Assembly (NCBI GenBank): GCA_016286365.1
Contig: JAEESN010000001.1
Location: 1-64,000, forward strand
DNA length: 64,000 nucleotides
Direction of reading: 5' to 3'
Source: Treponema sp.
Lineage (GTDB): Bacteria; Spirochaetota; Spirochaetia; Treponematales; Treponemataceae
Position 1 is the stretch's first letter; the number at the start of each line of letters is the position of its first letter. Positions 3,117 through 23,455 of the stretch are shown in pieces. The translations under genes and the position numbers were made by a program. The notes below the pieces were generated by a model. The model made no database searches and was not told the origin of the DNA. It was given only the letters and a program-made list of their open reading frames with translations.

Positions 3117-6100
3117 ATGAAGACTTTTAACCATTTTTTACGTTCTGCTCTGTTTCTTACTGCGCTTGTTCTTTCTGTTTTCTCCTGCAACATGTTTGAC
3201 GCATCGGTAAATGATTATTTAAGTTATTATACGCAGGGTATTTTTGCAAGTGAAATTAGCCCTTATGAAAATATGCCTTCTAAATATATCAACGGCATTC
3301 TTTATATTCCTTCTAATCTAGAACAGTATTATTGTTTGGAATTTTATTATTCAGATACAAAAAATAGAGAGCATGTACGTTTTTGTTATAAAGATGCTTT
3401 AGATATTACTCGAGGTTTTCCAGGGTACTCTTCTTCTGCTGATTATTATGCTGATCTTGATCATAATAATCATCATTGTAAAATTTATTTCAGTCCTTCA
3501 TATCTCAAAAGTAAAGACAAAGAAACCGCAGACAGAAATATTAATTTAAAATTATTGTTTCAATATGCCAGCACAGATGATTTTGCAGATCCGATTGACA
3601 CCGAACCCTTCTACCTGAACTGCGTCGTAAACACTCCGCCGGAAATCCTGGAAGATAATTATACATATTGTAAACTGATTGTTGACGGGGTAAAAAGAAA
3701 TATCCTTTGTTTTAATATTAAACCCGAAGAAGAAAATCTTTATGGGGATCTAAAAAATTCAAACGGAAATTACACAATCAGAATAAACGGAACTCAATAC
3801 GAGTTTTATTTTGACACAACAACTCATAAACCTGTTTTCCAGGGAACAAATAAGTTTTATAGCTCAATAAGCAGTATTCCGGGCGGCAGCGGGCTTGAAA
3901 CTCCCGAAGGAGGATTCGAAGCAAAGACAAATCCTGTTTATTTTGTCACAGACGAAAATACAGAAAAACTCTACGAAATTCTTATTGTAGATAACCACGG
4001 TCTTGAAAAAAAATATACGATTTCTACAAAGCCATCCGGAAAACAAAAGCTTAATCTTAGTGTATCTGAAGGAATTGATTCTATTGAGATTACACCTGAT
4101 TTTACGGCAGTTCCTCAAAAACAAGGCGAAACCCCAATCACTGTAAATAATCTTATCCTTGTTTATACAATAGATGATGGTGAACTCCAGCAAAAGAACT
4201 TTAATAATAATGATACGACTCCTTTTACTATTTACGTTCCTGGGGGCACAGAAAGAATCAATTATTATATGAAAACCGATCAGCCAGACATAAACCAGAG
4301 TGAACACAAAGAAACAAAATTTACCCTCCAGAAAAAAATTTATGTTAAACCAACCCCAGAAGACTCGAACTACAGAGGCGGTACAAGCGACACCCCATGG
4401 AACATCAAAGACGCCCTTGAATACCTTGGCCACCAGACCGGCGAATGGACCTTGGATGTCGGCAGCGGGGAGTATAAGGCTATGTCTGAGGCTGATATAG
4501 ATGCTGTAGGAGAAGCTTTTATATATGTGAAAAAAGACCCGTCTGTTAATGTAAAAATAAACATCGAGGGAGAATCAGATACCCAAAGAGCCACATTTAA
4601 TGCAAATAGTATAGGCCGTGTTTTTTCTGCAAATGGAGTACCGGTTAGTTTAAAGTATGTGAACATTGCAGGTGGAAATTATGATAAAAATGGTGCAGGA
4701 GTAGTGTCGAACAATTCTTTATCTCTTGAAAACTGTAATATATATGGTAATACATCAACAATATGTCAATCTTCAGATCCAGAATTTAACGACGGTACAG
4801 GACATGGTGGAGGAATATATAAAAGCGGAACCACTCTGTTGTATGTAAAGAATTGTAAAGTTTATAGTAATGAATCAAAACGTAAAGGAGCAGGAATTTT
4901 CGTAAATTCTAGTACAGTTTATATCGAAAACACTAAAATTTATGATAATAAATCAGGTACATGGGGTGGTGGTATTTGGAATCAAAATGGTAACGTTTAT
5001 ATATATGGTGGAAGTATAATTGGTACAGCTTCAGATGATACGGCACAATATACTGAAAATTTAGGAAAATATTCAAATAGAGCAGGAAGTGGTGGTGGAG
5101 GAATTTATTCAAAAAAGGGAACTATCAATATAGGCTATTATCTTGATGAGGAACAAGAACTTACAGAAGATGATGAGCATACAAATTCTGTAATCTATAA
5201 TACTGCAAACTATGGTGGTGGCATTTATTGTGATCGGGCATTAGTACGTATGTATAAAGGTATTATTAATTGTAATTATGGGTATCAAGGTGGAGGAGTA
5301 TATTTATATAAATCTAGTGACGATCTCTCAAAATTTAACATAAAAGATTCATCAATGAGCAAGAATAATGTAAGTAATAAGGGTGGTGCAGTTTATGTTG
5401 AAGATAAAGAAAAAACAGTTTTTATGCCTATGGGAACTGTTACTATAGATTCAAGCTCCGCAAAAAATAATGATGTTTATTTGTATTATGAAACTGACCC
5501 TCAAAAAACGCCAGTCGATACCGCTATATCATTAAATTCTAGTTCTGAACTTGATTCTTCTTCGCATATTTCAATTACTCCTGGTAGTTATTCTGATACA
5601 AATCCTAAATTAGTCGGTATTGCTGTTGCAGATATAGCCCAAAAATATAAATGCTTCTCTGTAACAAAATCCGGTAATACTGAATATTTTCTAAATCCAA
5701 AAGCAGTATTAACAACATACCAGCCGGCAGAAACCTTACCCGATAACTATTCTGTTTCTAGCGGAAAGACCCTCTACGTCTGGTCCGGGGCCGATATTAC
5801 AAGAATTGCCGCTTTATCTAAAAACTATGATTTTACCGGTGCAACTGTAAAACTTCTGGATAATATTCAGACATCAATAAGAGATGATGATGATCAGATC
5901 GGTTCATCTGATAAACCTTTTAACGGTATTTTTGATGGAAACAGTAAAGAAATAAATTGTTCGAATAATACAGATGCTATATTTCATATTACAGGTGGTA
6001 GTGCTGAAATTAAAAATATTAAACTAACCGGCTCAGTTACATTAAACGATAGTGTTCCACAATATCCAGCTTTACTTATTGCTTTAATGAAAGGTGGAAA

Positions 6101-6827
6101 AATTGAAGACTGCAAAAACTATTGTTCATTAACTATAACAACAGGAGTAGATCTTAAATGTGTAGGAGCACTTGTAAGTCAGGCACAAAAGAATAGTGAT
6201 GAGACAGCTTATGCAGAATTAAATAAATGCATTAATTATGCTTATGTTAATGTTACTTGTACGGAACAAGATAGCTATGGATGTGTAGGTGGGCTTGTTG
6301 GATCGTCTGCTGGATGTAATTTTACAAATTGTGCTCAAAGAAACTATGTAAAAGGAGGAAAGCATGCAGGAGGCCTTCTTGGTAAATTTGCAGGTTATAC
6401 TACGGCAAGTACTTTTAGAAATTGTTATGTTTCTGCAAATGTAACATCAACTGTGTCCGGGGGCTTTGCAGGAGGATTAACAAATTCTCATTTAACTTAT
6501 GAATATCCTGTTGAATTTTATAATTGTTATTATATGGGAACATTATATACAAATAATGGTTCTTCTGGCGGCTTTGTAGGAAATGATTACGGGGCTAATC
6601 CTAATTCAAACACATTAAAATTTTCAAATTGTATACTTGTCCAAAATTACTATACTGGAAATGCTACTTATGAACCTAATCCAGAGGAAGGTACAACAAT
6701 AGAAGCTGATAGTGATACAATAACCAAAATTAAAAATAAATTAAATTCAATAGCCAATGATAATGAAAATTATACGAGATTTAAAAATTTAAATAATAGA
6801 TGTGTTTTCGATGATGAAACCCAATAG
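3117..6827 (+). CDS. Large beta-helix lipoprotein with GLUG-like C-terminal repeats
   Basis: 1236 residues. ATG 3117 follows GAGGG (3106-3110), itself preceded by a T8 run. The signal peptide (MKTFNHFLRSALFLTALVL) ends in lipobox VFSC with Cys24, so export and lipid anchoring are expected. Residues about 150-400 match the first lipoprotein (VNTPPEIL, NGTQYEF, KPVFQ, NPVYFVT), which shows tandem paralogy. Residues about 500-780 form a beta-helix with GGGIY/GGGVY repeats. Residues about 1015-1125 carry GGLVG, GGLLGKFAG and GGFAGG turns typical of GLUG-motif surface proteins. Roles such as adhesin or glycan binding are guesses. Unlike its neighbour it has no repeat tract in the signal peptide and is intact. 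The next gene has its own promoter. Confidence 0.85.
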   Translation: MKTFNHFLRSALFLTALVLSVFSCNMFDASVNDYLSYYTQGIFASEISPYENMPSKYINGILYIPSNLEQYYCLEFYYSDTKNREHVRFCYKDALDITRGFPGYSSSADYYADLDHNNHHCKIYFSPSYLKSKDKETADRNINLKLLFQYASTDDFADPIDTEPFYLNCVVNTPPEILEDNYTYCKLIVDGVKRNILCFNIKPEEENLYGDLKNSNGNYTIRINGTQYEFYFDTTTHKPVFQGTNKFYSSISSIPGGSGLETPEGGFEAKTNPVYFVTDENTEKLYEILIVDNHGLEKKYTISTKPSGKQKLNLSVSEGIDSIEITPDFTAVPQKQGETPITVNNLILVYTIDDGELQQKNFNNNDTTPFTIYVPGGTERINYYMKTDQPDINQSEHKETKFTLQKKIYVKPTPEDSNYRGGTSDTPWNIKDALEYLGHQTGEWTLDVGSGEYKAMSEADIDAVGEAFIYVKKDPSVNVKINIEGESDTQRATFNANSIGRVFSANGVPVSLKYVNIAGGNYDKNGAGVVSNNSLSLENCNIYGNTSTICQSSDPEFNDGTGHGGGIYKSGTTLLYVKNCKVYSNESKRKGAGIFVNSSTVYIENTKIYDNKSGTWGGGIWNQNGNVYIYGGSIIGTASDDTAQYTENLGKYSNRAGSGGGGIYSKKGTINIGYYLDEEQELTEDDEHTNSVIYNTANYGGGIYCDRALVRMYKGIINCNYGYQGGGVYLYKSSDDLSKFNIKDSSMSKNNVSNKGGAVYVEDKEKTVFMPMGTVTIDSSSAKNNDVYLYYETDPQKTPVDTAISLNSSSELDSSSHISITPGSYSDTNPKLVGIAVADIAQKYKCFSVTKSGNTEYFLNPKAVLTTYQPAETLPDNYSVSSGKTLYVWSGADITRIAALSKNYDFTGATVKLLDNIQTSIRDDDDQIGSSDKPFNGIFDGNSKEINCSNNTDAIFHITGGSAEIKNIKLTGSVTLNDSVPQYPALLIALMKGGKIEDCKNYCSLTITTGVDLKCVGALVSQAQKNSDETAYAELNKCINYAYVNVTCTEQDSYGCVGGLVGSSAGCNFTNCAQRNYVKGGKHAGGLLGKFAGYTTASTFRNCYVSANVTSTVSGGFAGGLTNSHLTYEYPVEFYNCYYMGTLYTNNGSSGGFVGNDYGANPNSNTLKFSNCILVQNYYTGNATYEPNPEEGTTIEADSDTITKIKNKLNSIANDNENYTRFKNLNNRCVFDDETQ

Positions 6828-17771: not shown

Positions 17772-18872
17772 ATGAAAAAAGGATTTTTACTTATTCTGCT
17801 TTTTTTCTTAATCTCTCCTGTATTTTGCCAGGAAACAATTCCCGATGAATTATGCGGAATCTGGGAAGGTAAGGACAGATTTGTGTTTATCGAGAAAAAT
17901 CCAGATGATAAAAATCCTGAAATTGTAATCCTTCTGAAAATGTTCTACGGCTATTACCTTGATTTTACTGCAGAGCCTCGTGCAAAGCGAAACGAACGTC
18001 CTGTAGTAATCAACGATGCAACAGAAAAAGACTGTGAGCACATAACATTTTCGGTTAACGATATAGATCGTTCAGATAAACCTGACAACGCATGGGAAAT
18101 CCGTCTTGTGTATTCTAAACGCGAAATTAATTATGTTCCCGTTGCAGTTTTAGACGGAAAGATGTATCTGAACTTTTTTGTAAAAAATCTTACCTACGAC
18201 GAAGATGATAATCCTATAATCACAAGTAACGGTTTCTGGCGCGGAAATGCATACTCAGAAGGAATTAAAGCATGCCGTCAGAATGTTCGCGATAATATCC
18301 CGGGTTTTTATGTAAACGGTAATGAATATTTTGATGTACGCTTCTGGAGAACCGACAGCGATTTTAGTCCCGATAACGCACGCCTTATTTACGACGAAAA
18401 ATTATACGAAGTTTATAAACACATCTATTCTGCAGGAACTGTTTATTCATGCGTTACAGGAAGAAGCCACACAATCAGAAATGTTGTAGCACCCTTTAAG
18501 TTTGACGAAAACAATTATTTATTCAACGAAGATAAAACCCTTATGATTCCAAAACAGGAGCCATATCTTGTAAAGGTTGCAGATAAAGAAACCTACGATG
18601 ACCTTATAGAAATCGTACGCATTCAAAACAGCATTATTGCACCTATGCCACGCGGACCATTTGCAGATGCAGACTTGGATCTTGATTTTCACTGGGACTT
18701 AATCGATGAGCTTGAAAAATACAATGTTCTTGTTCAAAAGACAAGGGCAGTACAAAAAGAATGGGGACCACGCCCAAGAGACGTAATCAAAAAAAGAAAA
18801 GAAGAGCTACAGCTGGAAGCAGAGCGCAAAGCTTTGGAAAATACAAGCACTTCTGCAACAGTCGCACAATAA
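17772..18872 (+). CDS. Exported protein of unknown function
   Basis: 366 residues. It begins with a clear signal peptide (MKKGFLLILLFFLISPVFC, then QE), with the Cys at the cleavage region in VFCQ. It could be a lipoprotein or a simple Sec substrate. No family was recognised. The mature part is rich in aromatic and charged residues (ELCGIWEGKDRF near the start), with a Lys/Glu-rich C-terminal helix. There is no clear Shine-Dalgarno upstream of ATG 17772. It is single and closed by the terminator at 18905. Confidence 0.75.
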   Translation: MKKGFLLILLFFLISPVFCQETIPDELCGIWEGKDRFVFIEKNPDDKNPEIVILLKMFYGYYLDFTAEPRAKRNERPVVINDATEKDCEHITFSVNDIDRSDKPDNAWEIRLVYSKREINYVPVAVLDGKMYLNFFVKNLTYDEDDNPIITSNGFWRGNAYSEGIKACRQNVRDNIPGFYVNGNEYFDVRFWRTDSDFSPDNARLIYDEKLYEVYKHIYSAGTVYSCVTGRSHTIRNVVAPFKFDENNYLFNEDKTLMIPKQEPYLVKVADKETYDDLIEIVRIQNSIIAPMPRGPFADADLDLDFHWDLIDELEKYNVLVQKTRAVQKEWGPRPRDVIKKRKEELQLEAERKALENTSTSATVAQ

Positions 18873-18904: not shown

Positions 18905-18932
18905 AAAGCCCTGTGATTTTCACAGGGCTTTT
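18905..18932. terminator. Bidirectional rho-independent terminator
   Basis: AAAGCCCTGTGA (18905-18916), a short T-rich loop, and TCACAGGGCTTT, ending in a T run. The A-rich left flank gives a T tail on the opposite strand as well. It separates the convergent genes ending at 18872 (+) and 18935 (-). Confidence 0.92.
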
Positions 18933-18934
18933 GT

Positions 18935-19777
18935 TTATTTATTGTATTCGCGGTTGAACTTATTTATATAATAAATATATTCTTCCAGGACATCAGCAAA
19001 ACAAAGATACTTAAATTTTGCCATCATCTTTGCCCAGTTCCACTGCTTGATATTTTCTGTATGCGGATAAGGTGTGTAGAAAAGACGCTTTGAAAAATGG
19101 CGGATTACAGTGTCCTTGTACATAAACTTCTGGTCATTAAAACGCTGCGAGATTTTAAGCTGTTTAGTAGTACTTCGGATGATTGCGCTTTCGTCTGCAA
19201 ATGTAAGTTTATGTGTTTTAATTTCTACGCGTGATTTTTCGAAAAGACCTGTTTCCTTACATTTTTTGATGTTGAACAAAATTACACCGGCATTCATGAA
19301 TTTGCGGATCCAGAAGAGGATGATTTTTCCGTAGTGATCCTTTGCCGCAGCATATTCGTAATCAGTTACATCCTTGTTGTAAAGGAGAGTGATATCGCGG
19401 TTGAATAAGAGGTCAGCATCAAGATAAAGAATCTTATCCGGAATCTGTGGAACTAAATCTGCAAAGAGGCGTAAAAGGGTATAAGGAGAGCAATAGCACT
19501 GTTCGTTAGGACTGTTTGCAAATTCCTTGTTGTAAATATCTGTAACATCGATTTTAGTAACCTTGTTCTCGGGATTATAAGTTTTTATAACCTGTTCAAG
19601 AAATTTAGCCTGTTTGTCTGTAATCGGTGTGTAATCTTCACGAAGGTGATGAACATCCATAGTGAATAAAAAGATATTAAATGGCTCTTTAGTTTCTGTT
19701 CTTTTCATGATAGAAATTGAGCACGAAAGAATACCATCGAATACCTTGTAGTTTCCGGCATATAATAAATTAATCAT
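18935..19777 (-). CDS. Glycosyltransferase family 8 protein
   Basis: 280 residues. GT8 enzymes are retaining galactosyl/glucosyltransferases that use UDP-sugars. The metal-binding DxD is in ILYLDADLLFNRDIT, and NAGVILFNIKKC and ADESAI are also typical. It is the last gene of a four-gene operon (GT8, acyltransferase, acyltransferase, GT8) and overlaps the preceding acyltransferase gene by 8 bases. This suggests a role in a surface glycolipid or lipooligosaccharide. The acceptor is unknown. Confidence 0.87.
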   Translation of the reverse strand: MINLLYAGNYKVFDGILSCSISIMKRTETKEPFNIFLFTMDVHHLREDYTPITDKQAKFLEQVIKTYNPENKVTKIDVTDIYNKEFANSPNEQCYCSPYTLLRLFADLVPQIPDKILYLDADLLFNRDITLLYNKDVTDYEYAAAKDHYGKIILFWIRKFMNAGVILFNIKKCKETGLFEKSRVEIKTHKLTFADESAIIRSTTKQLKISQRFNDQKFMYKDTVIRHFSKRLFYTPYPHTENIKQWNWAKMMAKFKYLCFADVLEEYIYYINKFNREYNK

Positions 19778-20558
19778 TGCTTTCCTCTTTTTTTATGTAT
19801 TTGATTATTTCCATATTATTATTTTTTGTTCGTTCTGTCATCGCATTATAGACCTTGTTTCTTAAATCCATTTTCTGTTCTTTTGGCGAAAGCGATTTAT
19901 CTGCAAAAAATGGTCCGTCTACATAAGTTACGATTCTATGTTTGGAAGAAAATCTTCTTTTCTGATAAGTGTTTGTAAAACAGAAGGTCGGAACATCATA
20001 CTGTACCGGATATCTGAACGAAGTTTCTGCAAATGGTCTTATCTTAGTGTAGTAAGGCCAGATGTGTGCTTCAGGATAAATCATCACAGGGTGATTCTGT
20101 TCAATCCTCATTTTTATGATGTTCATAAAGTTTTTAGCCGCTTCAAAATCGTCGGGGAGGGGAAGTGCTCCAAGGTAAGGATTAATTCTTCCTAAAATCG
20201 GCATGGAAACATTGTTTGGATGAACGATTACCCAGATGTGATTAGGCTTTGCAACCTGGGCCGGAATAAAAGGATCGCACGCAGCATTTGTGTGATTAGC
20301 ATACATAAAATATGCCTTATGCTTATATGGTTTTAAAACTTCTTTGTTTATTATTTTGTGATGAACTGCAAGCTTTAATACTAAGCCCGAAACAGGACGG
20401 AAGGTAAGCGTATACCAGAACCAGTGAAGGAATTTCCATTTAAAATTATTCTTTCCGTAGTCGTATTTCCCATCGATTTTACGCGGAGTAATTTCTATAG
20501 TTGAAAATTCATTTTTGAGTTCATCGGTGTAATAAATTACTTTCTGTTCTTTTTTCAT
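19770..20558 (-). CDS. PlsC-like acyltransferase with altered HX4D motif
   Basis: 262 residues. The middle region reads FMYANHTNAACDPF and later PVMIYPEAHIWP, fitting the lysophospholipid acyltransferase superfamily (motifs I and III). In the usual NHX4D motif four residues separate His and Asp; here there are five (H-TNAAC-D). A membrane-associated helix near residues 45-65 (FLHWFWYTLTFRPVSGLVL) is present. It lies 3 bases after another acyltransferase gene and overlaps a GT8 gene. It probably acylates a glycolipid or lysolipid; the substrate is unknown. Confidence 0.75.
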   Translation of the reverse strand: MKKEQKVIYYTDELKNEFSTIEITPRKIDGKYDYGKNNFKWKFLHWFWYTLTFRPVSGLVLKLAVHHKIINKEVLKPYKHKAYFMYANHTNAACDPFIPAQVAKPNHIWVIVHPNNVSMPILGRINPYLGALPLPDDFEAAKNFMNIIKMRIEQNHPVMIYPEAHIWPYYTKIRPFAETSFRYPVQYDVPTFCFTNTYQKRRFSSKHRIVTYVDGPFFADKSLSPKEQKMDLRNKVYNAMTERTKNNNMEIIKYIKKEESND

Positions 20559-20561
20559 CGC

Positions 20562-21404
20562 TTATTTTTCTTCGGGCAGATATTCAAGCGGAATTCCGTA
20601 AGTCTTTTCGTAAACTTCCTTCCACATGTCGTAATTCTTGTCGCGCATGTATTCGATGTTTTCTTTGCGAGATTTATTCGGATCCGGATAAATAGGCTCA
20701 AGAACATTTATTGTATAAGCCTGGATAGGAAATCCGTCGCCGCCGATTTTATCTGTATCTTCCATTGTGATAAAGATTGGTAAAACCGGAGCCATGCTGT
20801 TTACAGCAAGATTGAATGCACCGTTTGTAAGAGGACGAGGCTTTCTGTAATTCCACCACATTCCCTGTTCAGCGTAAACTAAGATTTTCTGCTTTTTCTT
20901 TAAAAGAGTTGCTACGGCATCGATAAAGAGCTTCATGCAGGAGAAGTTTGAGCTTAAAGGAAGTGTATTACAGTGGCGGAAGAAAAGTCCGTAAAGGCCC
21001 GGGAAAGAAGTGAAGTTTCCTTCGCGGATTACTTTATAAAGATTTGTTCCGATGTATGGATGAACCATGTTGTGGATAGCAAAGTTATCAAAGGCATTAA
21101 AGTGGTTACAGGTAAGGATAACACCCTGATCTAAAAGCTTTTCAAAGTTTTCTATTCCCTTGATTTCTTTTATTACAAGTTGACCGTTTTTAATCAGGTC
21201 CAGGATGAATTTATAGGCCTTTTTGTTTATAAAGTAAGATAAAATCTTATTCTTTAATTTTTTCTGAAGATAATCCACCTTATCTGCTGTGAGCGGAATT
21301 GTCGGAGGATCATTTTCAACATCTTTGTTGAACCATCTTTTTCTTTCGTATTCGTCTATTCTAGCGAGTACGGCGAGTCTTTCTTTGTCTTTTTCGATAC
21401 ACAT
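20562..21404 (-). CDS. 1-acyl-glycerol-3-phosphate-type acyltransferase (PlsC family)
   Basis: About 280 residues. The catalytic NHX4D motif is intact (TCNHFNAFDNF), and block III is visible as ILVYAEQGMWWNYRKPRP. A TTG at 21410 is in frame, but ATG 21404 is preferred. The start overlaps the 3' end of the upstream GT8 gene by about 44 bases, so translation is likely coupled. Acyl transfer from acyl-CoA or acyl-ACP to a lipid hydroxyl is the family reaction. Location between glycosyltransferases suggests glycolipid assembly. Confidence 0.82.
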   Translation of the reverse strand: MCIEKDKERLAVLARIDEYERKRWFNKDVENDPPTIPLTADKVDYLQKKLKNKILSYFINKKAYKFILDLIKNGQLVIKEIKGIENFEKLLDQGVILTCNHFNAFDNFAIHNMVHPYIGTNLYKVIREGNFTSFPGLYGLFFRHCNTLPLSSNFSCMKLFIDAVATLLKKKQKILVYAEQGMWWNYRKPRPLTNGAFNLAVNSMAPVLPIFITMEDTDKIGGDGFPIQAYTINVLEPIYPDPNKSRKENIEYMRDKNYDMWKEVYEKTYGIPLEYLPEEK

Positions 21405-22428
21405 AGGCAATCTTATATCCGTTTGAATTAATAAATCTGTATAAACTCTTTATTCCGGGAAGATTTAAGAAAAGCTGTGTTCCTTTTTTAAGGAAACTTG
21501 TCTTCATGTCAAGAACGTTTTTATAGTTGTTAGGATTATCAATTTCTGACTGTGCAAGCTTTTTAAGATTTTCGAACTGAGTTGTATCATCCATCTTCTG
21601 CTTGTAGGTATAATCTTCACGACCTTTTTTAATCATTTCGTAGAAGTCAGTCATCTTTGCATATTTCCAGAATTCCTCTTCGAAAATAACGTGCTTGTAT
21701 CTCCATGGCTTCCAGTTAAGATTATAGTGGATGAGGTTTACCTTGCGGCATTTAAATTTCTTGTCATCAAAAGGCATTTTGTTCCAGCCAAAATCAAGGA
21801 TTCTTGTTTTGTTCTGGCAGATTACGTTTAAATAATCTTCGTCCTGTGTAACGCGGAATTTATACTGCTTTAAAAGATTGATAAAGCGCTTCTGGACATT
21901 GTATGCGCGGAACATCTTTGTGTTCATCAAAAGCATTCCGGCATTAAAATATGTCTTAAGCTTACAACCCAAAACCTTTTCTACATATTCACCGAATACT
22001 CTGTATTTCTGCATTACCTGTTCAGGAACACAGCCTACAAGGTAGTTAGAAATATTCTTTCTGTAAAGCTTTGAAATATCACCTGTGACAACGATGTCTG
22101 CATCAAGATAGATAACCTTGTTGTACTGAGGGAAGAGTGTGTCAATAAAGAATCTGTTGTATGTATCTAAAGAATAATAATCACGAACATGTAAATCCTG
22201 CTTGATTTTTTCCATTGCAGGACGGATATCAAAATATTCAATAGAAGAATAAGGAGTTAAGCATTTTTCTACACTTTTTTTCCATTCAGAATTCAAGTCT
22301 GAAGAAGAAAGTACATGAAATTTATAAAAGTATTTTGGGGATGCATTTTCAAGAAGTGATTTTAATGTAACAGCCATGTACGGAAAATAATTGTTATCAA
22401 CCGCAAAAAATATTGGTATGGTTTTCAT
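21361..22428 (-). CDS. Glycosyltransferase family 8 protein
   Basis: 355 residues. The N-terminus IPIFFAVDNNYFPYMAVTL and the DxD motif in VIYLDADIVVTGDIS, followed by YFNAGMLLMN and NVICQNKTRILD, are standard GT8 features. The C-terminal ~60 residues are basic and may touch the membrane. It is the first gene of the operon, with about 208 bases of non-coding DNA between it and the divergent TPR gene at 22637. It probably adds hexose to a lipid or LOS-like acceptor. Confidence 0.88.
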   Translation of the reverse strand: MKTIPIFFAVDNNYFPYMAVTLKSLLENASPKYFYKFHVLSSSDLNSEWKKSVEKCLTPYSSIEYFDIRPAMEKIKQDLHVRDYYSLDTYNRFFIDTLFPQYNKVIYLDADIVVTGDISKLYRKNISNYLVGCVPEQVMQKYRVFGEYVEKVLGCKLKTYFNAGMLLMNTKMFRAYNVQKRFINLLKQYKFRVTQDEDYLNVICQNKTRILDFGWNKMPFDDKKFKCRKVNLIHYNLNWKPWRYKHVIFEEEFWKYAKMTDFYEMIKKGREDYTYKQKMDDTTQFENLKKLAQSEIDNPNNYKNVLDMKTSFLKKGTQLFLNLPGIKSLYRFINSNGYKIAYVYRKRQRKTRRTR

Positions 22429-22636: not shown

Positions 22637-23455
22637 ATGAAAACTAAAAAGACCTTATTGATCGCTTTATTCTCATTTTTATTTATAAATATTCATGCAC
22701 AAACTACAATTTCTGCTAACGGTCAGAAATATATCGATAATTTTATGAAGCTTCGTATGGAACTCACTGCAAATAAAGAAAAAAAGGATGCTGTAAAAGC
22801 ATTAAACTCATACAAAGCCGCAAATCCTTATGCAAATTATACAAATCAGGAAAAACTGATTATAGATTCTTTTTACATCCTGGAAAAATATAATTATACC
22901 TGGGAAGAAAAGGGAACAGAAGCAGCTCTTAAAAAAGAACTTATATCACAGGCAGACAAAAACGAAGCCTTTATTAAAAATAATAAAAATAATACATCCG
23001 GTTGGGTTTACGTCCTTACAGCAGATTTATATTCATGCTATATGTCTTATTCTCCAATGAGCGGGGCTATGAAATACGGTATGACAGTAAAAAATTACTA
23101 TCAGGAATGTCTTAAAATCGACCCTAAAAATTCCTACTGCCTTACTCACATGGGACAGTGGTATTACTGGGCTCCGGGCATAAACGGTGGAAGCAATAAA
23201 AAGGCTCTTCAGTCATTTAAAGATGCAGTTACTTATGCAAGAAACGATGCGGAAAGATTTTATGCAAACATGTTTTTATCTCAGATGTACTTTGAATTAA
23301 AGGATAAATCTTCTGCAAAAACCTATCTTTCTAAAGCTGAAGCAATCTATCCTTCAAGCGAAACCGTAAAGGAACTTAAAAAATACAACGTTCAGGGATA
23401 CTCACTTTTTACCTACAGCAAGAAGAAAGCCGAAGACGAAAAACGCGTAGATTAA
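22637..23455 (+). CDS. Exported TPR-like repeat protein
   Basis: 272 residues with a signal peptide (MKTKKTLLIALFSFLFINIHA, cleavage before QTT). The mature part is helical; residues about 165-255 look like tetratricopeptide repeats (LKIDPKNSYCLTHMGQWYYW, then ALQSFKDAVTYARN and AKTYLSKAEAIYPSSE). TPRs usually scaffold protein contacts, so a periplasmic partner-binding role is plausible but unproven. A good AAAGGAG precedes the ATG. It lies 88 bases before ileS and is probably a separate unit. Confidence 0.75.
   Translation: MKTKKTLLIALFSFLFINIHAQTTISANGQKYIDNFMKLRMELTANKEKKDAVKALNSYKAANPYANYTNQEKLIIDSFYILEKYNYTWEEKGTEAALKKELISQADKNEAFIKNNKNNTSGWVYVLTADLYSCYMSYSPMSGAMKYGMTVKNYYQECLKIDPKNSYCLTHMGQWYYWAPGINGGSNKKALQSFKDAVTYARNDAERFYANMFLSQMYFELKDKSSAKTYLSKAEAIYPSSETVKELKKYNVQGYSLFTYSKKKAEDEKRVD

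Follow-up and report, generated by a model that had tools for sequence, protein, structure and literature searches.

A two-module glycosyltransferase-acyltransferase cassette in Treponema

In a 64,000-nucleotide stretch of the genome of a gut Treponema sp. (contig JAEESN010000001.1, positions 1 to 64,000; hereafter the window), we describe a cassette of four genes that is conserved, mobile, and built as two modules, each pairing a glycosyltransferase of family 8 (GT8) with an acyltransferase of the PF01553 family, and that probably constitutes a pathway for sugar-acylated glycolipids. All four are encoded on the minus strand, one behind the other, and no gene intervenes. GT8A comes first (21361-22428; 355 amino acids; PF01501, 1e-44), followed by its partner acyltransferase ATA (20562-21410; 282 amino acids from a TTG start; PF01553, 2.3e-11), the second acyltransferase ATB (19770-20558; 262 amino acids; PF01553, 1.8e-5, with 25 bits against a cut-off of 23), and the partner of ATB, a second and diverged glycosyltransferase, GT8B (18935-19777; 280 amino acids; PF01501, 5.3e-12). 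GT8A and ATA overlap by 50 bases, or by 44 if ATA begins at an ATG two codons inside the TTG (21404-21402), ATA and ATB are separated by 3 bases, and ATB and GT8B overlap by 8. All four proteins pass the Pfam cut-offs of their families, and none reaches an NCBIfam cut-off. The initial annotation, made from the letters of the DNA, had described two GT8 enzymes flanking two PlsC-like acyltransferases with overlaps or a 3-base gap, which the coordinates and Pfam matches bear out. The source genome (2.68 Mb, 99% complete) contains exactly two PF01501 genes, both within the cassette, and seven PF01553 genes, two within it and five elsewhere. The four-gene cluster is real and more than a chance grouping.

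Conservation, fusion, and spread of the cassette

A GT8B-seeded search of the genome collection returned 74 loci, which are related to each other rather than independent and which divide among Spirochaetota (37), Bacillota (35, mostly Lachnospiraceae), and Mycoplasmatota (2). All four domains are held by 60 of them. GT8A and ATA form one protein of ~600 amino acids at 36 of the 74 loci, and in another Treponemataceae genome (locus L050) ATB and GT8B are fused into a protein of 593 amino acids, so each half of the operon occurs somewhere as a single protein. Neighboring core genes share a strand in 161 of 162 cases, and 155 of them overlap or lie within 60 bases of one another (median gap -4). 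The 14 incomplete loci comprise ten with ATB and GT8B only (one, L097, cut by a contig end), two that lack GT8A (L090 and L110), one that ends within GT8A (L149), and one with GT8B alone (L126); of the corresponding sampled genomes, G054, G092, G097, and G098 have GT8A and ATA on a separate contig.

The usual gene order is GT8A-ATA-ATB-GT8B in Treponema and ATB-GT8B-[GT8A-ATA] in Lachnospiraceae. Three Treponema loci (L115, L116, and L158) have the fused arrangement of the Lachnospiraceae type, and in the GT8B tree their sequences group with a pair of rows from Bacillota (support value 94, without a star). This quickly built tree, whose long branches meet at the base and from which one partial row was excluded, contains two changes of phylum label for Spirochaetota, and its starred branches still allow one origin. 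To judge from these relationships, the cassette has been transferred between phyla, probably more than once. The initial annotation had offered a treponemal glycolipid as an example; a limit to treponemes falls away, as Bacillota and Mycoplasmatota account for 37 of the 74 loci and diverged homologues are present on brewery plasmids. Named isolates that carry the set include T. bryantii, T. berlinense, and Agathobacter ruminis, with L. brevis and P. claussenii carrying the brewery form, and Roseburia sp. 831b has an unfused set on a plasmid. A viral origin was also considered and rejected, since ATB had no relative when searched against viral contigs.

Presence of the genes was then scored across 100 Treponemataceae genomes at thresholds of 200 bits (190 for ATB) that were read by eye and leave weaker paralogues uncounted. 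GT8A and ATA occur together in 27 genomes with no discordant case, and GT8B and ATB occur together in 24 with a single discordant case, a 59% complete metagenome-assembled genome that has ATB only. The initial annotation had named co-occurrence as a check on its proposal and its failure as a refutation; partners are found together in 27 of 27 and 24 of 25 genomes, an outcome that does not refute the proposal. Of the 100 genomes, 20 have GT8A as well as GT8B, and 4 have GT8B but no GT8A. These four (G004, G010, G014, and G091) have an ATA-like gene (105-127 bits) in the same cluster, beside a shared protein that Pfam assigns to glycosyltransferase family 2 (GT2) in the one scanned (L049).

The survey was extended to Bacillota. 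Among 200 genomes of the family of Agathobacter ruminis (L145; Lachnospiraceae), ATB is found at E ≤ 1e-30 in 12, nine of which hold all four genes together (L207 with ATA in two pieces); the other three have, respectively, GT2 at the GT8A place, a family 4 glycosyltransferase (GT4) beside ATB, and no recognized glycosyltransferase adjacent. In the phylum to which L135 belongs (Bacillota), 72 of 392 genomes have ATB, and 20 of these 72 neighborhoods were opened. All four GT8-type parts are present in five (L245, L246, L248, L252, and L258) and ATB with GT8B in two (L247 and L249). Three have the order ATB-[~430 amino acids]-ATA, in which the middle protein is GT2 in the one scanned (L250) and is assigned to GT2 from position and size only in L253 and L254. 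GT4 adjoins ATB in four (L251, L256, L259, and L264), and in five (L255 and L260-L263) ATB is part of a protein of ~650 amino acids that contains GT4 in the three scanned (L255, L260, and L263). At the remaining locus, L257, the single scanned neighbor of ATB is a glycoside hydrolase.

The acyltransferases change glycosyltransferase partners

Across these loci the family of the glycosyltransferase changes while the acyltransferases stay the same in kind. GT2 takes the GT8A place in L049 and L209 and lies between ATB and ATA in L250. GT4 is fused to ATB in both orders, as GT4-ATB at 6373-8313 of L255 and 4935-6920 of L260 and as ATB-GT4 at 5074-7056 of L263; a further GT4-acyltransferase fusion occupies 7125-8951 of L054, and GT4 is also found beside ATB in L213. 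The fusion proteins of L054, L255, L260, and L263 are candidate single-protein acyl-glycolipid synthases. When eight of the GT4 proteins were compared with NCBIfam, the top glycosyltransferase model was a glycerolipid enzyme, IagA/BgsA or monoglucosyl-diacylglycerol (MGlcDAG) synthase, in seven, L251 being the exception; all seven matches are far under cut-off, and many further GT4 models matched as well. Acyltransferases of the same kinds thus occur with GT8, GT2, and GT4 enzymes and are repeatedly fused to two of these three families, which is best explained by an acyltransferase that acts on the sugar or glycolipid of its partner.

Two further arrangements were observed. Genomes of Bacilli and Mycoplasmatota (L199, L200, and L201) encode, at a site distant from their cassette, one more acyltransferase of the ATB type. 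On a Lactobacillus ultunensis plasmid (L186), an ATA-like acyltransferase and a GT4 are encoded divergently at 4591-5703 and 5770-6660, and the best NCBIfam match of this GT4 is the lipoteichoic acid (LTA)-anchor enzyme IagA/BgsA.

Catalytic motifs and folds

GT8-type positions are conserved across 78 distinct GT8A rows. The best solved relative of GT8A by sequence is LgtC (1ss9, 1.8e-18), and its best NCBIfam match is a lipopolysaccharide (LPS) galactosyltransferase model (5.8e-19, under cut-off). ATA and ATB both belong to the PF01553 superfamily, having a profile match over cut-off and a catalytic histidine with a downstream acid. By alignment column, the His-Asp pair is present in 81 of 82 ATA rows (the other is His-Glu) and 88 of 89 ATB rows; by pattern, the spacing is HX4D in 78 of the 82 distinct ATA rows and the longer HX5D in 88 of the 89 from ATB. 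Neither protein reaches the cut-off of the curated PlsC/AGPAT model TIGR00530: ATA scores 25.5 bits against 102.95, and ATB gives no match at E ≤ 0.01.

Both proteins depart from PlsC in motif III, which is EGTR in PlsC enzymes and whose arginine has a phosphate-binding role. By alignment column this motif reads EQ(S/G/A)(M/L)W in 77 of the 82 distinct ATA rows and EGSEW in the other 5, and EAHIWP in all 89 distinct ATB rows, and arginine occupies its fourth place in 0 of the 171 rows (82 ATA and 89 ATB). In a plant glycerol-3-phosphate acyltransferase (GPAT), phosphate is bound by basic residues (PMC4792965).

An AlphaFold2 (AF2) model of ATB (pTM 0.86) has the fold of PlsC (Z 15.2), GPATs (12-13), PatA (10.4), and LpxM (8.6), the last of which acts on lipid A. 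The superposition with PatA has an rmsd of 5.0 over 184 residues, and this fold is common to the whole superfamily, hence the match is weak evidence. The model of the fused GT8A-ATA protein (pLDDT 86, pTM 0.57; relative domain placement unsure) matches WbbM, LgtC, and GlyE; its top 50 rows are glycosyltransferases, so these matches cover the GT8 half only.

A proposed pathway for sugar-acylated glycolipids

Our preferred model, which we consider probable, connects what was observed directly: the four reading frames are open and keep motifs of catalytic type, the genes are coupled in pairs and fused at some loci, the family of the glycosyltransferase changes while the acyltransferases beside it stay the same in kind, and the EGTR arginine is lost. 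Two glycosylate-then-acylate modules would work on the same membrane lipid, on the cytoplasmic side of the membrane. With a nucleotide sugar as donor, GT8A would glycosylate a lipid acceptor, perhaps diacylglycerol, monoglycosyl-diacylglycerol, or another lipid, and ATA would attach a fatty acyl chain to the sugar; GT8B would add a second sugar, which ATB would acylate. The lipid would end up with two sugars and with one or two additional acyl chains bound to them. That a single pathway glycosylates and acylates, as proposed in the initial annotation, is well supported by fusions, co-occurrence, and glycosyltransferase swapping; we infer that the acceptor is a lipid, and we similarly expect each acyltransferase to act on the sugar of its own partner. 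The cellular side and the number of acyl chains are likewise presumed. As a possible maker of the acceptor, monogalactosyldiacylglycerol (MGDG) synthase (PF06925) has no match in the genome, other makers being outside this search.

Pathways of this kind are already known, and acyl-glucolipids have been described in acholeplasmas and lactobacilli; neither for this set of enzymes nor for its fusions did we find an assigned product. If the model is true, it provides candidate enzymes for the acylation of glycolipid sugars, a function for the highly transcribed neighbors of horA discussed below, and an example of a lipid pathway that is exchanged whole between spirochaetes, which are diderms, and monoderms.

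Several observations weigh against this model. We found no tested substrate for any enzyme of the set, and known GT8 enzymes also act on glycans and proteins. The modules are separable, 7 of the 100 Treponemataceae genomes having GT8A and ATA only, and because the genomes are related, Fisher p-values overstate their independence. ATB lacks a recognized adjacent glycosyltransferase in L199-L201, where the neighbors lay outside the Pfam scan, and in L214, where its largest neighbor is a CoA-enzyme activator. The predicted fold cannot separate sugar from glycerol-phosphate acceptors, given that PlsC and the GPATs outscore PatA as matches to the ATB model. Finally, as a control, the five other PF01553 proteins of the genome keep the motif III arginine in three cases (EGRR, EGTR, and SGTR) and lack it in two (EGRY and ESRH). 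The motif III argument against a glycerol-phosphate acceptor is real but imperfect, and it is not decisive because of these last two proteins.

Alternative explanations

The same control bears on the view that ATA and ATB are ordinary glycerol-phosphate or lysophosphatidate acyltransferases for phospholipid, that the GT8 enzymes decorate a surface polysaccharide, and that the two activities share regulation only. Membership in PF01553 would fit, as would PlsC being the best structural match of ATB, the annotation of the plasmid homologues as lysophospholipid or 1-acyl-glycerol-3-phosphate acyltransferases, and the two genomic relatives that also lack the EGTR arginine. The arginine is nonetheless missing from all 171 ATA and ATB rows, the genome has five further PF01553 genes, and there are fusions to GT8, fusions to GT4 (for ATB and one other acyltransferase), and the pairwise co-occurrence across Treponemataceae; we regard this explanation as quite unlikely. 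Even less can be said for glycosylation and acylation of a carotenoid or hopanoid in the manner of CruC/CruD. The carotenoid pathway does pair a glycosyltransferase with an acyltransferase that acts on its sugar, but squalene/phytoene synthase (PF00494) has no match in the genome (G000) and was found in 7 of 14 control genomes. We rejected this candidate as highly improbable.

It is also unlikely, in our estimation, that the four enzymes make or modify by trimming the lipid that anchors a surface polymer, which would be LTA-like in Bacillota and lipooligosaccharide (LOS) or LTA-like in treponemes. Such a role would accord with the resemblance of GT8A to LgtC and, under cut-off, to the LPS galactosyltransferase model, with the likeness of the partner GT4 proteins to the IagA/BgsA LTA-anchor enzymes, and with a gene resembling undecaprenyl-phosphate translocases (PF04018) that lies close to the cassette at nine loci of Treponemataceae (two being the same record). 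Against this, no polymerase was recognized among the recurrent neighbor families of 80 loci, which were surveyed by eye and partly Pfam-scanned, and LOS cannot be the common product, since monoderms, two Mycoplasmatota loci included, carry the set. The LOS anchor offered as one example in the initial annotation is unlikely for this reason, the cassette being present also in monoderms and in relatives of the mycoplasmas. An anchor role, if there is one, might be confined to some hosts. Set against these alternatives, the two-module glycolipid pathway is the reading we favor.

Diverged homologues surround a horA-type transporter gene on brewery plasmids

When ATA and ATB were searched against plasmids with tblastn, the matches were mostly from brewery lactobacilli and pediococci, with 32-41% protein identity to these two acyltransferases. 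On a Fructilactobacillus lindneri plasmid (L182) the order is GT8B, an ABC transporter gene on the opposite strand, ATB, GT8A, and ATA, with profile scores of 238, 244, 312, and 184 bits for GT8B, ATB, GT8A, and ATA. We take this ABC gene, which is of the BmrA/MsbA type, to be horA because a 99.1% identical copy lies on NC_017019, a P. claussenii record of 33,246 bases, the size of the horA-bearing P. claussenii plasmid pPECL-8 (33,246 bases; PMC3765258). All 17 plasmid records with a transporter at least 95% identical also match all four enzymes, some partially. Seven of the 17 were opened (L182, L185, and L265-L269). Being near copies, the 17 plasmids count as one event and not 17.

The statement in the initial annotation that no known pathway is recognizable holds as to function but not as to the genes, a diverged form of the group having already been published around horA. 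That report (PMC3765258) describes five genes with conserved order around horA, four of which are phospholipid or cell-wall genes; each of these four horA-flanking envelope genes was >3-fold more transcribed than horA in beer, and the authors call for study of their role. In a second report (PMC6533708), two glycosyltransferases and two acyltransferases are among the plasmid genes exclusive to beer-spoiling L. brevis, occurring in the same six of seven spoilers. From the plasmid of strain TMW 1.2108 (L185), these appear to be the same four cassette homologues. A literature search returned no functional study of the cassette or of the horA-flanking enzymes, a weak negative in that subscription journals were thinly covered.

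The evidence that the cassette itself matters for beer spoilage is mixed. Non-spoiling P. damnosus strains TMW 2.1532 and TMW 2.1534 have an open reading frame (ORF) of 483 bases, versus 777, at the place of ATB and a full-length annotated transporter. Of the strong spoilers, TMW 2.1533 has a split ATA, and in TMW 2.1535 an insertion sequence (IS) element separates ATB from GT8A. L. brevis TMW 1.2112 matches the transporter in two pieces that coincide with no annotated gene, and its ATB, GT8A, and ATA are annotated. The P. damnosus source paper ties spoilage to a fabZ cluster and reports no significant relation with horA. Brewery plasmids with such a broken or interrupted member (short ATB, split ATA, IS element, or two-piece transporter) are L265-L269.

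We also asked whether a HorA-type transporter is a general part of the cassette and rejected this. Across 200 loci searched with HorA, 13 ORFs (some overlapping) reached E ≤ 1e-30, and none lies inside a cassette. The nearest are ~580 bases beyond it in L209, 740 in L111, and 940 in L078, on the opposite strand; such ABC transporters are common, and these three may be there by chance. ORFs for ABC ATPases and permeases, a mixed group of several types without a fixed position, occur in 18 of the 80 loci, with a median distance of 2.5 kb. Behind the cassettes of L209 (5803-9470) and L111 (11360-14871), at the distances just given, are paired half-size ABC exporters on the same strand, which are possible export partners. 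Taking the brewery plasmids together with the wider distribution, one could imagine a mobile sugar-acylated glycolipid pathway that has passed between phyla in the guts of herbivores and has been taken up by the plasmids of brewery bacteria. There the glycolipid, with the HorA pump, would underlie hop tolerance and HorA, as a BmrA/MsbA-type protein, would possibly be the flippase of that lipid; we offer this tentatively and think it rather doubtful.

Companion and neighboring genes

Divergent from the cassette, at 22637-23455 on the plus strand, lies a gene for a tetratricopeptide repeat (TPR) protein whose N-terminus, inspected by eye, has a hydrophobic segment like a signal sequence; this gene is a frequent companion in Treponema only. 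A TPR profile, built from these same neighbors, matched the fetched stretch at 25 of the 37 loci from spirochaetes and at none of the 37 other loci. The TPR gene is on the same strand as the cassette and overlaps its last gene in L115 and L116, and it lies 22 bases downstream on the same strand in L158. The family has matches in 51 of the 100 Treponemataceae genomes, and many of these matches are not near the cassette. Weak TPR matches (17-33 bits) form runs with GT2 and an ATB-like acyltransferase in L163, L164, and L166, and in L165 GT2 is flanked by a TPR match and an acyltransferase match. Against the PDB the profile gave weak matches only, several of them to designed TPR proteins. The TPR companion may be a periplasmic partner in diderm hosts.

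The PF04018 (undecaprenyl-phosphate translocase-like) gene found near the cassette in nine Treponemataceae loci is located at 3039-4022 of L110, where it was Pfam-scanned, 8900-9847 of L104, 8923-9819 of L095 (the same record as L075), 8470-9423 of L139, and 8993-9925 of L090, with further copies in L080, L081, and L077. It is mostly convergent with GT8B, divergent from GT8A in L139, and on the same strand ~150 bases downstream in L090.

Directly behind GT8B in the window is a hairpin of 12 pairs (18905-18931) that is terminator-like on both strands. The terminator scan of the region gave 4 such sites versus 2.5 expected by shuffling and by itself is weak evidence. Beyond it, 17772-18872 encodes a protein of 366 amino acids with no Pfam or NCBIfam match; a neighbor family at this place recurs in 10 of 80 loci, the window included.

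Comparison with known systems

One precedent for the proposed chemistry is PatA of mycobacterial phosphatidylinositol mannoside (PIM) synthesis, which acylates a sugar added by a partner glycosyltransferase and shares the fold of ATB. PatA belongs to PF03279, and the glycosyltransferases of PIM synthesis are GT4 enzymes. PatA and ATB differ in sequence, with 5-8% identity over aligned residues, and in that the acceptor of PatA is a phosphatidylinositol mannoside, where it acylates O-6 of a mannose in PIM1/PIM2 (PMC4792965). PlsC, a 1-acyl-glycerol-3-phosphate acyltransferase, shares with the cassette enzymes the PF01553 family, the alpha/beta fold (Z 15.2), and the His-Asp pair, whereas its EGTR is replaced by an EQxMWW-type motif in ATA and by EAHIWP in ATB, which also has HX5D spacing. 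Galactosyltransferases of the LgtC type share the GT8 fold, but the cassette enzymes are fused to or paired with acyltransferases. The glucoselipid operon glcABC of Rouxiella is likewise an operon for a diacylated sugar lipid; it differs in consisting of acetyl-/acyltransferases and a phosphatase, with no glycosyltransferase named in the abstract that describes it, and in having acylated glucose as its product (PMC12299268). The horA-flanking set of beer spoilers is alike in holding two GT8 and two acyltransferase homologues in one cluster, and it differs in that the genes are unfused, GT8B is split off by a divergent ABC gene, and a HorA-type transporter lies inside.

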